From positions 6,081,001-6,145,000 of the forward strand of contig NC_134025.1 of NCBI RefSeq assembly GCF_964204645.1: a DNA stretch of 64,000 bases, given 5' to 3'. A program made the translations under genes and the position numbers. The number at the start of each line of letters is the position of its first letter. Position 1 is the first letter of the stretch. The DNA comes from Tubulanus polymorphus (taxonomy: Eukaryota; Nemertea; Palaeonemertea; Tubulaniformes; Tubulanidae). Of this stretch, positions 1 to 38,000 are shown one piece after another. Below the pieces are notes generated by a model. That model was given only the letters and a program-made list of their open reading frames with translations, did not search any database and had not been told where the DNA came from.

Positions 1-361
1 TTCTCGATCGACAAAATACAATATTTCAGTGGTCATTAATGAGTCTGTTCTATGAAGAAAAATTACATTTCTCATTTTAGAATGAAACACTTATTATGCC
101 GTTATATATATGTAAGAAACGTTCATTTCATATCATTTCTTATATGAACATATGATCTGCACAGACGACCCTGGAGAGAATAGTGTCAACATGTAATATT
201 TATTACTCGGTATTCCAAACTGTAGCATCTTCGATAACAAACTAATGAAGAACAGACGAGCTAAATCTATGTCCTGAACGCTTTCGTTACATTTTTTATT
301 TAAGAAAAATATGAAAGATCTTTACCTTTAGAAAAAATAATTCACATTCAGTACATTTATG

Positions 362-384
362 TATATATATATATATATATATAT
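362..384. repeat. (TA)n microsatellite
   Basis: An uninterrupted run of alternating T and A of about 23 bases. It is a simple repeat with no other signal. Confidence 0.85.
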
Positions 385-3300
385 AAAGGGAGATTCTAGA
401 AATCAGTTAATGAGAGCAGAGGCTCCATTCAGGATCCTGACCTGCGTGACTACAAAGCACACAGTCACTTCAGGTGTTGGAAATAATCCCCACGCGGAAA
501 GCAAAACATTGTTTTAACCTCGTGTCACACAATAATCCGATATAACACGTAAATGGGACAGGTAAAAATGCCCGTTAATCCGCATTAACATCTCTCGGGC
601 ATTATCTAAACACTGGTAACCGGATAAACGACGAAGGGTCTACTTAGACGATGATTCTTAATCAACAGTAAAATAAATATGACGACAAAAATGTGATTAA
701 ATCCTTCTATTTGCGTGCGATCTCTTTCACTGCTTTAACGCACCGTTTCGTCATTGTGAGGTTTTGCAGTGTTCACGATGTTCATGGTGAACTCATTTTG
801 AGTATTTTTTTAGTATATATGTCGTTGCATCTTTCCGCAATAGGCTTTCGTATCATAGCTCGCTTCCTCTATTGAACCATGGACTCTAAAACGATTTAGA
901 GTCCACGATTGAACCTATGCCTCTTCGTTCATCGTATAGGCCTAAACCGGACAAGACGAAAGAATCAGTTCCCACGGTTGAATATTCCCAACAGAGACCG
1001 TAATATGGCCGTGGCGTCAAGCTGCAGGAGAACTTCATAGAGTTTTATAATCCATGATGAATATTCCAAATAACCGAGTCTAATTCTATTTGACTGGATC
1101 CGACGTCAAAATACTCTACACGGTATCTACATCCACTAAATCGTTAGTTGTTTCACATTCATTCCAGTGATAATATAAAATGCGTCCCGGCATCTTATGG
1201 TGGGATAAGCCAGGAAATCTTGATTTTTATCATTTGCTGTGACCGTGTTCTGCATCGTCTGACAGTCAGAATTCTGATGTTGGGGAAACGAGCTTTCCAG
1301 TCCTTTATATATTGTCAGTAGCGTTCCTTTAGCACCTCTTGTGCTCTATCTTTAGACTGTTATCGTGTGCCTCTCTCTGCCCCTTCAATCGACTCCTTGT
1401 CTCTTGTGTAAAAACCCTCTGAAATGGCCTCGACAGCGAACGTAGATTTATAAAAGTGGGAAAAGTGGTTTATATAGTCTGGAGGGTGCATCTTTATTCA
1501 TTTTCTTACACGAGTGCTGGGTATTATGGAGCGCAAAGAAGAGTTCTTCAGTCAACTCAACCCTCGATGGCTCTCGTTCGTTCTACAGTGAAGGGTTCTC
1601 TCGTGAAATCTCGTCTTGGCGAGAGTAGGGCACTGCAGGCGACAGCAGTCTAGATGGATAACGATTCGGCTGAAACAAAATGGAGATAGACGGTTATACG
1701 TTTACCATTATCATTCTTGGGATGGCATGGTCTCGCATATTGTTATAGAAGCCATATTTGATTTAGATTTTGAGATTTCTCTCACCGGATCGTGTCTGTA
1801 TTAATTACATCGAAATCCGAGTGACAGAAAAGCGTATATAAAACATCTCAGTAACTATTCTTTGTACGTTCTAGTGTGGCATGGTCAAGTGTTGTATTTA
1901 TACAGGATCAGATGACACTTCGAAGATTTGTCTCGGTATTTACGCCAGGAGTGGACTTCCGAAATTTGACTCTTAAGAGGTTAACGGAAATCTAATCATA
2001 CCATCATATCATAATGAATGAATTCTATATGACGCCTGCTGGCTGCTGACCATGTTTGTATATCCGGAAGATATGGTTATTCTATATTCTATACCCTTCA
2101 AATCGAGTCACTCAGTGGCAATAATGCATAAAAATATATTTTTATAGGGTTTTCATTCCAACTTTTATGATACAAATTATTGCTTTCTTTTTTTCTATTC
2201 ACGGGGTTTGGTTTATAGGGATTGGCCATGGCTCGATGGGCAAACCTCGGAAGACTTTCAGATGATTTGATATGATGTTTTCCGCATAAAAAATCTATTT
2301 CATATCATATCTCAGGGGAATTTCCAGTCCGAATAAGAATAGGGTCAAGTCAGAAGGCCGCCTTGATTTGTTAAATTTGTTGCATGGCCAAAATTAGCTT
2401 AGCTATGTCTACAATTTTCCATCAATAAAATAGATTACTACGTAGGAAGTATCAGCAATCTTTGAATACATTCTTCCAATCCAAATATGAGTTCACATTG
2501 AATACGAGTGCATTTTAAGATTTGATACGGAAAAGAAAATGTTGGTGTTCTGTACAAGTAAAAGCTTTATTTCAAAGAAAAATTTATGCATTTATTCACA
2601 GTAAACCGATCTTATGTCACATTGAGGAGTTCGCATGAGGCTAGTTGTTTACCTACAAGCTGTGACCACATCAAGGACAAAGTCATCCGCAGCTCAAACT
2701 GTTAAAACCCTCTTGAGCGTTTTAAAAGGAACATTAAAACTTTCGAGAACAGATAAGCCTTTAACTTTGTTTGTTTTCGTCACAAAACAGCTGCTTACTA
2801 TGATGCTTTTTCTCTAGTTTCGGTGCATGAACATAAAACCTGTGCAAATTGACTCAGTTTTCGAGTTCGTTTGTTTTGTTTTAGTTCGACAAAAATGGGA
2901 CTGGTCAAAATCAAACACGACGACAATGCGAATACAATGAATGGATGTGATTACGGACGAGTAAATCATTGTTTTAGTCGCTGTTGACATCAAGAGTCAG
3001 GACAACGATTAAACTATTCACTATGCCCCAAATACTGCGTACAGATTTTCGGGTGACATTTCATCCATCTCGAGTTAATAGTTTAGATAATTCTGTAAAG
3101 TTCAGATATATCCGATTTCGGAAGTCATTTTGAGAGCCGTTTAAGAGGCTTTAGATAGATAGGATACTGACGTTGAATGAATGACATTTTTCGCAAAATG
3201 CATGCACACATAAATGGCCAATTCCCATCGTTCTAGAAATTGCAGAGGATTTTTACACGATTTTTCATACATTCTACTATGGACATTATGTCCCAATCGG

Positions 3301-3986
3301 ATACAATTAATCATGAATTTTCGAAATTCATTTATTTAGATGCTAGCATCAATACGCAAGTATGAAACCAACTCGACGGTTCTGCCAACTTCCGCTCATA
3401 TTCCGCATTTTCGCGCGGTCCACAAACCACTGTCGCATGCAATGCGCAGTACGGTCGTGCGCACCTAGGTTAACTGCTGTTTTGTTTTACCGACGAACGT
3501 GTTCGACAATTAATCAAAGTTTGGGCGAATTGTCGAGAGCTCTCCAGTTTTTCCCGTAATTAACGGTTCTCTTTGCGACAGACTCGTGCGCACACTCGAG
3601 TGATACTTGAAGACGTTTGCGAGGGGAACATTTTCGTAAATTTATAATGAGCCAAGGTTTGTATTCTGGTTTCAAATCGTCTGCCTCCGGGACGTGATTT
3701 ATTTAGTAAATATCTCGGCTGTCAGACAGAATCCATTGCGCCTGCTACTCAAACACGATGGCGAGGGCCTCTTCAAAACGCCAGTTCAGTTTGTTCTTAG
3801 ATAGTAGGGTTTTGGTTGCATCATTTATTTTGGGCTATTCAAACATACCTTACACGTGTTCAGTTTCCAAACCCTTTGAACTATGACTTCAAATCTTACC
3901 TCATGTCTTTTTTTATCTTTGATGCTGATGTATGTACAAACGAGATACAAGAAAAATTGGTTTCCCCAAGCTGGAGATCCAAGAGT

Positions 3987-6900: not shown

Positions 6901-7789
6901 TGTCATCTTGGGCCTCTTCATTTCCGCGGGATCTAGATCGAGTAGGGGACACCCTCATTGAGTTGTGTTACGAAGGCAGGACACGTATAACAAGCACGTG
7001 TTTGGAATAGACGTATATATAGCGAGCTATTTTTCCGGGTGACATTCCTTTATTGTTTATTTTTTACACATGCCATTTTTCAATTATCGTACTCGAACTA
7101 TTATTGCGAACTGCTCGAATCTGAAAAAGCATAAACCTTTTTATAGATTACGTGCAAATGTTAAATTAGGATTTGATATCCGGTTTTGCTTGAACTAACT
7201 CGATATTATACAGTTCAAATCGAAACTCTGAGGATGGAAAATGAATGGGACTCGTAAAGTGTTTGATGCGTCAGTTGTATCTACCAGTCACGTTCTAATC
7301 GAAAGAACCATTGAATAAATGCAGCTTCCTGTGGAGATGAACATCGGTTTTTGAATCGCTGTCGTTAGTATCACGCAAACATCCCACAGAGCACTTAACT
7401 ACTTTGTTAATTATTGACCTCGCTATCCCCGTCTTCATTCGTCATTAGATAATCTGGTGGTAGATTCAACAATCTTTTCTTTTCAAACTTTTTCATTAAA
7501 AATACTGATGATAGAACGGTTTAAGAATCTGTAGTTCGACTAAAGAATCCTCCTCGGTTGAAAGCATTCCTGTTAAAAATCCCTGATTCGATTGGCCCCG
7601 TTTACCACTGGGTGCTATGAAATGTACCGCTTTTTACAAACCTAATATAATTAATGATGAGAGAATAGAATCAAAGTAGGGTAAGAGGAAAGTTCTCATT
7701 AAGAAATTCATCGTTTGCAATCTGGCTAAGCATTGAATCTTTTGGGAACAAGAAAACCAATTACGGTCGAATTGTTCACGGTTTTATTC

Positions 7790-22888: not shown

Positions 22889-25795
22889 TTACCAAGTTCG
22901 CCCGTTCAGTAGGTAAGACGACGTTGACATATTATTCGCGTTCACCGAAGAGCTAGTCGGATAACTTTCGTATTTGATAGTGTTTAAATTTGGTACATTG
23001 GTCAGATTTTGAGACGTTCCATGCGACGACATGGTAACATTAACAGATCCGTTCGTGTTATCATGTCTATTAGCGCTGTGAGCTTGTTGTTGCTGCGAAC
23101 TCACTGTTTGTCCCGTTTGTCCGGTCTGACCGTTCGACTGAGAATCAGCGCCCGTGCACGGTTTCCCGTCCTTTACCAAGACGGGCACGGCTACTCTTCG
23201 AGGTGACGGTTGGCACGAGTTATTGATAGTTTGCGAGTCCATCTTTTCCTTATCTTTCTGCTGGCGTTTACACTTATAACGGTGGTTTTGGAACCATATT
23301 TTGACCTGGGTAGGAGTAAGATTAATCATGCTGGCTAGGTGCTCCCGTTCCGGCGCCGACAGGTACTTTTGCTGCTTGAAACGCCTTTCGAGTTCATAAA
23401 CTTGTGCTTGAGTAAACAAAACACGTCTTTTCCTTCGTTGGGTTAAAGGAAATTGCATTCCAGGATGCTTATTGTGGTCTAGGCCACCGAGTCCCATGTT
23501 CATATTCATACTTGATGACATTCCCGACATCGAACCGCATGAATTCGGTCCCATGAGTCTTGAAACTGAAAATAGAAAATCGACACAATCTTACAATATG
23601 CCCATGTATAGACCTTGAGGAAAAAATGTCACCTTTATTCTGAAAATATGGGTAAAAATATAAACAACGGGCAGCTGTTTATGGCGTCGATAATTTTTTA
23701 TCATTATGATATATCAGCAACATATGCGCTATGAAAAAATAACAGCGACATTAAACAGTTATTTCATGGTTTAGATATCTATTGATGAGTAAGCTATGAA
23801 TAATTGAAAATCATGAAAATAAAGGCCATCAGAATTAAAACGGGTCCCCAATAATCGAGCGGGTTGCGGGTAGTTTAACGTAAGTAATTCTTATTTGAAC
23901 AAGCGTCGATAATCCAAGTAAAATAAATGACTAAAAGGTCTCTAACTTCACCACAATTCACATCAAATATTAGATTTGAATGAATTAATAATATTTGTAC
24001 AAAGCGCGTATTCAGGCATTAAGAGCTATTTCATTACGAATCGTACACGCAGTTAAAGGAGATCGGCAATATTTATGAAGGATTTGAAATTAGATTTTGA
24101 CTGGAATTAGATTCCGAAAAAAAAATTTGATCCATCTTGCATTTCGGTAAGAATAAGTACGCAATTGATCCGGGAGTTGTCCAAAACTATATCAAAATGG
24201 TGAAAATTGAATCCGATAAACAAGGTCTACGATAAGCTATACATAAGGAGTGATTGCACCGAGAAACACGGTTTCCTGATCGCTAAAATAAATAGTAGCA
24301 ATAATTGTCTTTAAAATTCGATTATATCGCGTGAACCTGTCACCGATAACAGTTCAGATATTGTCTGATCGAACTGTATGTTGACATCTGACGACATTAC
24401 ACGTGAAAAATTAGATAAATCACTCGCTTCCATTTTGCGCCGGCTGAATGAAATGAAATAAATTTCGCCCCGTATTCATTTATGAAAGCAGTTTTATTGG
24501 CCTGTATTTATCTAGCAGATAGTCGAGGCTCCGCGAAAATGTTTGTAATAACATTGGCGTCTCGGGCGTCAAGTCGCCGAGAGAATCCTAGACAATTTAC
24601 TCTTTATCTGCTCGTGATAGCATAACCTCAATTTCGAATCACATTATCGAGATAAAATTGCGTTTAAATCTTAAAATTCTATCATTCTATCCTGGTCTCA
24701 ATGCTGACACGATTGTAATCTATAGATAAATTCTCAATTAATAAGAAAGTCAGGTATATGTATTATGAATTATTGCATAAATAGATAGAGATTTCATATG
24801 ATATAACATATATACATTTAGTATCTACGAGTTGGAACGACTCAACATTTACTAATGCGTACAGCTATAAGCGCTTGAATTAAATTATTTAGCCGCGGTA
24901 GAAATACACATAATTCGACACGTAATTATGAATATGCCGTTTGAGATAATTATTTTCTTATCTTCGAATTTAATTGTGAAATATTCAATATCGATTGAAC
25001 TAGAATCGCGGATCGAATTGGGTCAAAATTTCTTTTCGATAAGTTGAGTAGGGGAGTTGACATGAATAACGGGCTTTCAGAGGCAGCTAGACGCAAAAAT
25101 GTGAGTCAAAAAACCTAAGTGTATATCTATACACTCCTAGAGCCCGATATACTACAGAGTATATAGTTTTATAAAGGTGAATACTGGCTGAAGTATCATC
25201 CACCCACACAGAACTGCTCTCCACTAAGTGCCCGTCCCAACATCTCTATAAGAGTTCACGTTTCAATCGAAATATGGACCACTTCATTACCACCGCGGTA
25301 AACATAGTTTCCATAGATGTCCAATTTCATTACAAGTAAACGAAAATTGAAGTTGCTAGAAGTTGCTCTATTACCTAATCTAGATCCAATTCGCGCATAG
25401 TTCTTAAACACGTATTAAGTCCGTATTAGCTACCTGCAAAAAATACGATTATACTTACTTGCAAATCTCGGGTCCGGATTGGCTCCGTACCAACTCGAGG
25501 TGCTGTGACGACTCGGGTCTCCATAATGACTTAATTCTGATCCGTTGCAATACTGAGTAGGAAAGGACGGCGTATGATGGGTAAGCTGCGGCACATAATT
25601 GTGATACGGACTGGCGGTCACTGGAACACTCATGCTACCCATACTGGTCATGCTGCTCGGTTGATGAGGTGGACTACGATACGGGGCAAGCGGCGGGATG
25701 CTTGCCTCAATTGATGTCTTCTTGTAAGCTTCTTCGATCGGACTCAAGATATCGCTGACTGAAAATGGAGTAGTGTGTTTAGGGCTCAATGACAT
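22889..25795 (-). CDS. nkx2.1: NK2-class homeobox transcription factor Nkx2.1 (TTF-1 / scarecrow type)
   Basis: A DNA-binding transcription factor of the nucleus. In animals Nkx2.1 patterns ventral forebrain, pharyngeal endoderm and endostyle or thyroid. There are two coding exons, 25459-25795 and 22889-23565, joined in phase 1 across GTAAGT...CAG to give 337 aa. At the N terminus (about residues 10-26) is the TN/eh1 motif FSVSDIL, which binds Groucho co-repressors. The homeodomain is residues 156-215, with WFQNHRY carrying Tyr at position 54, the hallmark of the NK2 class. The NK2-specific domain [15 protein letters not shown] follows at about 235-249. The C terminus ends LLNGRTW, resembling vertebrate Nkx2.1. 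The exon junction reads AISRLMGP, matching the AISRFMGP that I recall at this place in vertebrate Nkx2.1. Human NKX2-1 is 371 aa, so this model is nearly full length. The alternative Nkx2.4 is a vertebrate paralogue. The next homeobox neighbour is msxlx. Confidence 0.95.
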
Positions 25796-35090: not shown

Positions 35091-38000
35091 TTACACCGGG
35101 TTAAAAGCTGAGCAATTATTCTGTTTGATTGCGTGGGAAAACTGCGCAGAAGCAAAGCTACTGGGTGGTAGAGGACAGAATGTCTGTTTTGGCGTTTCTA
35201 CACTAGACGGCGCTGTATACGGTTTCTGATCGATCGTTGTTTTTGAAGTATTGGCGCCCCCTATTTGATCTCGTTCCCGTCGTTCGCGAGCTCGCCGATT
35301 TTGAAACCAGATTTTCACCTGAAAATGATAACAAGAAAATGGTAAATTGTAAGTTTATTGACGCCTTGAACATTATTTTTGAATATTGACGACAAATAAT
35401 ATGATATATATCATATAATATCAATGATCAATAAAGTTATTATGGATTTGAATATATCAATAATTGAATTGAATTGGTCGGCAACCAGTCCAACCCGATA
35501 TATCGATGACATAGTGCACATCCTCTCAAAACCAATCATTAAACAATCATTCGACATTAAACAATCATTAAAATCATAATAAGATAGGAGTTATGAAAAT
35601 GTATAGAATCACAGAATTAACGCTAAAATTCACTATTGCAATTTTCATTTTTAAACGCCCATATCGATGATGTAGTAGTAGACATCAACTCGCCAAGAAC
35701 AGGTATCAATGTATATAAACGTTATTGTAACGGTTTCTACAGTTTAAAAAAGATTCATAATGCAAAAATAACGAATTGTAACGATCTATTATGCTCGAAT
35801 CATTTTCATAATATTGATCCGACTATAAGTGAACCAGTTGAGTCAGCGCACACATCTTGCGGAAAACCGTTAAAGTTTCACCGGGCTCGATGAGACGAGA
35901 AGATACACAATATCCGTGTAAGAAGATAACAAGAGAAATCCCACAATAAGTTCAGCCAAAACGAGAAACTTGAATAGAAGAGTTATATATATTTGCGCAA
36001 CGTTTCGGCTAAAGACTATTAGCCATCATCAGGCGTACTGAGTATCATCATCAGTACGCCTGATGATGGCTAATAGTCTTTAGCCGAAACGTTGCGCAAA
36101 TATATATAACTCTTCTATTCAAGTTTCTCGTTTTGGCTGAACTTATTGTGGGATTTCTCTTGTTTTGTTCACCGGGCTCAGCTACTTAGTTCAAATCGAT
36201 TTCCCGTGTTGAATGAAATCTATTAAAAACTATTCTTATTCACTGCACGAAAGTAAAAATAAGTGGATATTTTTGACAAAATCGTCGTCGGTATTTCTAC
36301 GCATCGATAAGAATATTAGTGGGTTATTCTTTTCGCATAAATAATGAATTCTGGAATCATCTCGTATCATAACAGTTCCGATGATACTAGACTTCCGCAC
36401 AGGAGTTATATTTAAGAACGAAGATCGCGGTAATTGAACATCAGGAAATCAGATAACGTTGTCGTTCGAAGATACGGAATAACTGAACAAAGGCGAATGA
36501 ATACAGACCGGGATGACGTAATGAAGGACACCATTATTGGTATATTGAAAAACTACTAGCACGTTCGTAATATCCGATTTATATTAATAAACACAATTGG
36601 AAGTAAACATTTACAAAAATAAACGAGAATCTATTTATGTCGATAAGAATTTGTCGCCCATTATATAAGCCGAGACTGTTGGCTAGGAAGATTGGAAAAC
36701 GAGAATGGGTGATTTTTTTAAACCTGACGCGTGCCACCTTGTCGAAATGCTCCGGGTGAAAAACGCTTTGACGAATGAAGTCTATTCAAGCAGTGAAAGA
36801 AGTTACGACCACTTAATTCGCGCTTACCGGATTACCTCCAGGCGCGTGTCTTGTAAAATATGAGAATTAAGTTTCTCGCCGGAAACTCCCCGATATACTG
36901 TTTACTCTCGTGTAAGGACAGATCGAAATAAAGGTTGGAGTAAGGTCTGAATGGGTAGTTAGATTCAAGATAACACATGTTTAGATTGGATTAGAGAAAA
37001 AAAACTCATCGAGTAAACAAAGTAATCATTTCATGCCAAATTGATGCTCCATCTATTTATAGATAAGTAAAAAAACAATCAGGATAATCTAAATAATCGT
37101 ACTCATATAAATGTCTATATTTCACGATTACTTTCTTGTTTTTCTGTGTTCAGAAACATTACCATCGGCAGGGAAAGCAGTATTCACCGAGTTGATGATA
37201 TTATTCAATTAATATGTTTACTTCGTGCGATCCCAGGGGCCCCGGATGAGGAGGGAACGCGATTTAGACACTATTCAAATGCATCTCCTTCCGCAAATAG
37301 TTTAAGATAATATCCCGAGGATTCAGAATACGATTTTCTTTATCTCAAAATTCTAAGAGCAAGAGCAAAGGATGAACCTTATAGAACAAATCACTATACT
37401 GGTATCTTTTTATACTTACTGGTATCAGTAGCTTTCAGGAAGTTTAATTGAAAATCAAGTCGCTAGACAACCAAAATATTCTTAAGCAGAAAAAGGACAA
37501 TCTCATCGGAACATGAGACGTGGGATTGATTTTACTAATCTAATTTCGAAGAGTTCAATCCATCCAATATTAGATATAAAATACTTACTCTGGTTTCTGT
37601 CAGGTCCAACGTGGCTGATAAACTGGCTACATCCATACTACTGAGATATCGAGTTTGGTGAAATTTGTTTTCTAGACTGCTGACTTGATGTTGAGTGAAC
37701 GGTACTCGCGGATTGCGGCCGAGTTTGCGTTTTTTCTGTCCACCGCCATCTTTCTTTTTCTGACCTGATTGACAAAAATGGAGAAAAAAAATCTATTATC
37801 AATGATGCATTAGATAAGAATTAAGGAATTAAGGCACGAACGAGGGAATGAAATATATTGAAACATTCTTCCGTTATTTAAGCCGTGAAGACGGAGAAAC
37901 TGTAAACGACCCGAATCTGCTGATTGATGATCAAGAGATAATTGACTTACAGAATCCACATAATCCACTAGGTTTTCGTGATATTCTGACCTCGTATCAG

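Follow-up and report, generated by a model that had tools for sequence, protein, structure and literature searches.

The window, i.e., the whole stretch of 64,000 nt that we analysed, contains a palindrome that is probably a pLTR-only, promoter-proximal insertion of a young Penelope-like retroelement (PLE), formed from two cDNAs of one RNA, one per target strand, that were joined head to head. One arm and its leader (together 153 bases) match pLTR and tail of a PLE without any difference. The window thus holds two head-to-head pLTRs and no other part of the element. If the proposed reading is true, two-ended priming alone explains inverted pLTRs, the one-sided tail and palindromic stubs. The individual window insertion is an ordinary member of its kind. 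Its parts are, in window coordinates:

35877..35888, unstranded: first copy of the target-site duplication (TTCACCGGGCTC), an exact 12-bp direct repeat
35889..35927, minus strand: PLE tail of 39 bp, present on a single side, identical to the L010 segment that separates the pLTR from the ATG
35928..36041, minus strand: arm 1, the tail-bearing pLTR copy of 114 bp, with 100% identity to the pLTRs of intact PLE units in L010 and L011
35999..36032, minus strand: hammerhead-type core CTGATGA...GAAACGTT in arm 1, a pattern match; its mirror lies at 36060-36093 on the plus strand
36037..36041, minus strand: TCAGT, an Inr-like start site at the inner arm end; its mirror lies at 36051-36055 on the plus strand
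36042..36050, unstranded: junction filler of 9 nt (GTATCATCA) between the two putative cDNA copies, private to the window palindrome at up to 3 mismatches
36051..36164, plus strand: arm 2, the inverted tailless pLTR copy of 114 bp, exact reverse complement of arm 1
36165..36167, unstranded: TTG, three additional bases that separate arm 2 from the target repeat
36168..36179, unstranded: second copy of the target-site duplication (TTCACCGGGCTC), an exact direct repeat

This anatomy agrees with an earlier note on the same DNA: the arms match as reverse complements at 114/114 positions, the 12-bp direct repeat is exact on both sides, the 39-bp leader is absent from the opposite side and the copy is non-coding. 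Also the suggested recent insertion is borne out, since there are 0 differences from the intact element across the 153 bases. The outer end of arm 2 coincides with the short start site used by sister copies, and the right flank of the insertion occurs once in the assembly.

The insertion was said to be intronic, which we can confirm. The minus strand encodes a split Msx-type homeodomain at ~37.69 kb and ~35.31 kb, and the palindrome therefore sits in the intron between these two exons; an exon with the FNIEDIL motif lies at ~41.77 kb. The host gene appears to be an Msx-type homeobox gene, with msxlx as a putative exact name. Beside it, we recognised by eye an Nkx2.1-like homeobox exon (22889-23590, minus strand), and this adjacency presumably resembles the conserved pharyngeal gene cluster. 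For an RNA of the palindrome, the duplex expected by the earlier note is indeed predicted as a 114-bp hairpin (RNAfold, -210.7 kcal/mol). Intronic palindromes of this type are a possible source of double-stranded RNA, which might enter RNA interference or editing as the earlier note proposed. Rfam microRNA matches on the element were discarded, as they are sub-threshold only and of the sort any long hairpin yields. We propose that the palindrome persists as an intronic hairpin and claim no host function for it. Beyond the single locus, a retrotransposon can in this way distribute across a genome many short perfect hairpins derived from its own promoter-proximal RNA.

The source PLE carries a single ORF of 817 aa (L010, 2727-5180) with a reverse transcriptase and a C-terminal GIY-YIG domain, which match RVT_1 (9.3e-12) and GIY-YIG (1.6e-5), both above the Pfam cut-offs. 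The 39-bp leader ends immediately 5' of the ATG of this ORF. Tandem PLE units are found in L011, where pLTRs of the same orientation are 2856 bp apart. The element thus shows what characterises EN+ PLEs, i.e., reverse transcriptase and GIY-YIG in a single ORF, tandem pLTRs, an optional tail of 30-40 bp and target-site duplications (TSDs) of variable length; the reverse transcriptase itself is assigned to PLEs by domain order only. Given the identity of arm and leader to pLTR and tail of an element with intact ORF, the family guess of the earlier note, i.e., a Penelope-like origin, was right. The genome search it proposed came out likewise: besides the full-length relative with both domains, the host genome contains hundreds of arm copies, and the relatives have target duplications of their own (see below). 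Searching the 268 Mb host genome yielded at least 92 matches among 40 scored candidates, and 441 matches to the arm core that are exact or show one mismatch. For PLEs, 'tail' denotes the sequence bounded by two reverse-transcription start sites (PMC11167929), such that the leader is no oddity. We further observe a candidate minimal hammerhead motif in the pLTR, composed by pattern of the core CTGATGA-stem II-GAAACGTT/GTC. It is to be read as a motif match only, because an Rfam search of the element gives no hammerhead match. We also considered hammerhead-cut RNA as the template and rejected it, since the arms do not stop at the predicted cut site but continue to the TATA/Inr start. Separately, L010 holds a 3.3-kb palindrome (positions 1-3338, 99.9%) of two PLE units placed head to head with the centre in the C-terminal part of the ORF. 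That is, the element makes large palindromes, too.

To characterise sister copies, we scored the tail by a fixed 26-mer tail core test on each side; the sample comprises the copies most similar to three queries and is not a full census of the genome. The tail core is found on exactly one side in 63/70 short head-to-head copies and on both sides in none (0/70). Including decayed tails, the one-sided count rises to 66-67: the tail is diverged but detectable by BLAST in L043, L087 and L092 and cut in L078, while L084, L090 and L091 are too decayed for a reading. A tail-blind search that uses the central 153 bases as query reads one tail for 28/30 palindromes, with 2/30 unreadable. Ten palindromes were newly found with it; a single tail is seen in eight of them, and two cannot be read. 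The one-tail rule is thus independent of a tailed query.

TSDs of sister copies have a median length of 12 bp and mostly measure 9-17 bp. Flanking repeats of at least 8 bp are present in 46/55 copies, compared to 1.1% expected when flanks are re-paired. Five longer insertions of ~1-5 kb (C2:16218, C4:13621, C2:15609, C3:14107, C3:17549) each combine one tailed with one tailless inverted end and show duplications of 11-13 bp. For the insertion at C2:15609, we found two paralogous empty sites, each with a single occurrence of the 11-bp target GCTAAGTCAGC. These observations bear on the question whether the window palindrome is a false inverted duplication introduced by the assembly. Perfect inverted repeats can in general arise from hairpin reads. 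On the other hand, about 70 loci share this anatomy and most of them have a separate target duplication, the arms of old copies have diverged, and a related insertion has its two empty sites, which makes an assembly artefact hardly conceivable. By the same recurrence at some 70 other loci with own target duplications, the palindrome is not a product of chance either.

Three loci of the sample deserve a separate remark. L009 contains two tailed pLTRs (738-893 and 7166-7321) in inverted orientation around a LINE with a zinc-knuckle ORF and an endonuclease/RT ORF. Nested insertions are likelier here than a two-tailed palindrome, because the left pLTR continues into the PLE ORF. In L014, a second, unrelated 230-bp inverted repeat (1107-1336, ~90%) stands beside the PLE palindrome. 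The PLE insertion at C4:13.62 Mb (L029, 1-400; L098, after 243) lies inside a frame that by eye looks like a LAGLIDADG-type homing endonuclease, which is unusual on an animal chromosome.

Outer arm ends fall on two fixed sites 39 nt apart with little scatter, while most inner ends of sister palindromes lie at TCAGT or a few bases away from it. The intact element has TATAAATA starting at position -31 relative to the A of TCAGT (TATA/Inr), so TCAGT is the expected 5' end of the RNA; start sites and RNA 5' end are here read from DNA only. Some copies deviate, i.e., L012-L015 end further upstream, with the tailless arm exceeding the tailed one by 5-27 nt. The tailless arm also reaches further in for L060, L061, L067 and L068, and the tailed arm does so for L065, L077 and L079.

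These length differences matter for the idea that a single cDNA (or antisense RNA) bends back on itself at its end and serves as its own template for the inverted arm. Such self-priming was proposed for the inverted pLTRs, junctions and palindromes of rotifer PLEs (PMC3846280), would derive both arms of a copy from one template, and fits the several fillers that are stretches of the arm, as these require annealing between complementary cDNA ends. Yet it needs a first strand that extends at least as far inward as the second, and either arm can be the longer one (tailless in L060, L061, L067, L068 and L012-L015, tailed in L065, L077 and L079). Furthermore, it leaves unexplained that, in nearly all copies, the second arm ends at the tail boundary instead of continuing through the tail. 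We therefore consider fold-back self-priming unlikely, albeit the most credible among the rivals to two cDNAs primed at the two target strands.

Sequence variants connect the arms of individual copies. In the older subfamily, rare variants (present in at most two arms) are common to both arms of one copy 6 times versus 0.63 on re-pairing (p<0.0005). The second subfamily shows the same for 4 cases versus 0.56 (p=0.0005). Examples are a 4-bp insertion in both arms of L062, A48T in both arms of the young L004 and a private substitution in both arms of L013. Other variants differ between the arms of one copy, e.g., in L003 and L016, which may reflect post-insertion mutation, errors of the reverse transcriptase or a second template. 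An apparent case of different haplotypes in the arms of L045/L050 (alignment columns 89-92) turned out to be a gap-placement artefact and was dismissed. Were the arms copied from two separate RNAs, or inserted in two successive events, and then joined by recombination or repair, such arm-specific variants would be in accordance with it. However, the sharing of rare variants, the single target duplication around each arm pair and the lack of any two-tailed pair (0/70), where independent choice predicts many, all speak against this, and we deem it quite improbable compared to the copying of one RNA.

According to the earlier note, the palindrome is a non-autonomous member of its family. Our data do not support this. 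Allowing up to 3 mismatches, the genome contains the window junction a single time, and nearly all palindromes carry different fillers, from which it follows that palindromes form anew at insertion. A genome search for the centre pattern with any filler of 1-30 bases gave 18 places with 16 different fillers. The two repeated centres are C1:15219438/15228466, a pair inside a larger inverted duplication seen in L011, and C11:12076312/12299407. Among sister copies, fillers span ~0-30 nt and differ in nearly all cases; also for the older subfamily, from which we read 27 distinct palindromes, they are nearly all different. Several fillers are stretches of the arm itself, e.g., TGATGGCTAACAGTTGT, with a mean longest match of 7.8 versus 5.4 in shuffles. 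Annealing of complementary cDNA ends, with template switching between them, would leave such fillers. Fillers of 5-6 nt are shared by three pairs with different target duplications, namely L051/L052 (C11), L054/L056 (C6) and L059/L070 (C7/C3). Two of these pairs are on the same chromosome within ~0.2 Mb, and the arms of filler-sharing copies are no closer to each other than to those of other copies. The three pairs may represent recurrence or a rare copying of a finished palindrome.

A MITE-like or fold-back family that spreads non-autonomously as a finished palindrome could point to these three pairs, to the hundreds of arm copies, of which a great many belong to palindromes of similar size, and to the older subfamily, in which 40/40 scored candidates are palindromic. 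It is nevertheless very improbable: beside the mostly private fillers and the missing closeness of arms where fillers agree, TSD lengths vary, the two ends differ by the tail, and there is no sequence difference between the arms and the pLTR of an intact PLE. Judged by its junction, the window palindrome is a direct product of an autonomous element rather than of a palindrome spreading as such.

Starting from the observed anatomy, one-tail rule, duplications and shared rare variants, we propose the following course of insertion. The RT/GIY-YIG enzyme, for which a dimer is predicted in the lizard PLE (PMC11167929), would cut both target strands about 12 bp apart, and each target 3' end would prime reverse transcription on the same RNA. 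One strand would start at the proximal start site and yield the arm without tail; the other would start 39 nt downstream and yield the arm with tail. Both cDNAs would extend to the RNA 5' end, their 3' ends would be joined by microhomology or template switching, leaving the filler, and gap filling would produce the target duplication. If the start sites of the first pLTR of the mRNA are used, 114 and 153 nt would be copied and a palindrome of ~280 bp results. If, instead, a tandem transcript is copied and the tail-side cDNA starts in a downstream pLTR, the product would be a longer element that carries a single short pLTR in inverted orientation. We infer the use of one RNA molecule for both cDNAs, the assignment of strands to sites and a joining enzyme; shared variants would likewise result from two RNAs of one source locus.

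Biochemical data on the lizard PLE protein are partly in line with this scheme. Both strands of the target are substrates for its cleavage and extension, and its reverse transcription begins at two adjacent internal sites, between which the tail lies (PMC11167929). No difference in start sites between top and bottom strand was observed, i.e., a strict one-of-each pairing is not seen in vitro (PMC11167929). As a generalisation, two-ended target-primed reverse transcription might be obligatory in this PLE family, perhaps in EN+ PLEs generally, such that one RNA is copied twice, once per target strand and once per dedicated start site, before the cDNAs are end-joined. We give this generalisation an even chance.

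Inverted short pLTRs and one-sided tails are already known PLE features. In the part of the PLE literature surveyed, we did not find the asymmetry as a rule, one template for both halves, or a stub of ~280 bp as the commonest form seen. Regarding the completion of PLE insertion, the work on the lizard PLE stops after first cDNA synthesis (PMC11167929). Many natural insertions of varied age with readable junctions in one genome make the missing steps testable, i.e., the relation of strand and start site, the use of one RNA for both cDNAs, and cDNA joining.

Most similar among known systems is Penelope of the bdelloid rotifer Adineta vaga (Arkhipova et al. 2013, PMC3846280), which has direct and inverted pLTRs, TSDs and palindromes at inverted junctions. 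Its inverted pLTR is ~37 bp shorter than the full one, one inverted pLTR has an optional tail of ~31 bp, and TSDs measure 8-10 bp (PMC3846280). In A. vaga, a body usually lies next to the inverted pLTR, and self-priming was put forward (PMC3846280), whereas the commonest form seen here is bodiless, junction fillers vary, and the asymmetry holds across readable copies. With Poseidon PAc of Anolis carolinensis (Frangieh et al. 2024, PMC11167929), our element has in common the RT and GIY-YIG domains, the pLTR, a tail between two start sites and, as a candidate, a hammerhead motif. For Poseidon PAc, cutting and extension of both target strands, as our scheme proposes, were demonstrated in vitro. 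That study shows no head-to-head joining, one-site-per-strand use or shared template and describes later steps as not yet validated (PMC11167929). Animal retrozymes, i.e., hammerhead small circRNAs (PMC7229834), resemble the palindromes in being short and non-coding with a hammerhead-type core and a PLE-type relation. They consist of tandem direct monomers with type I hammerheads and form circular RNA (PMC7229834), in contrast to the inverted arms without Rfam hammerhead match found here, and we thus do not place the palindromes among retrozymes. An assignment to MITEs or fold-back DNA transposons was likewise rejected, given the tail at one end, the variable TSD length and the mostly private fillers. 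In twin priming of LINE-1, two reverse transcription events on one RNA from two cut ends result in an inversion with repair scars; it is occasional, and its second strand is primed internally. For the PLE studied here, two-ended priming would instead be the rule and would use two dedicated start sites.
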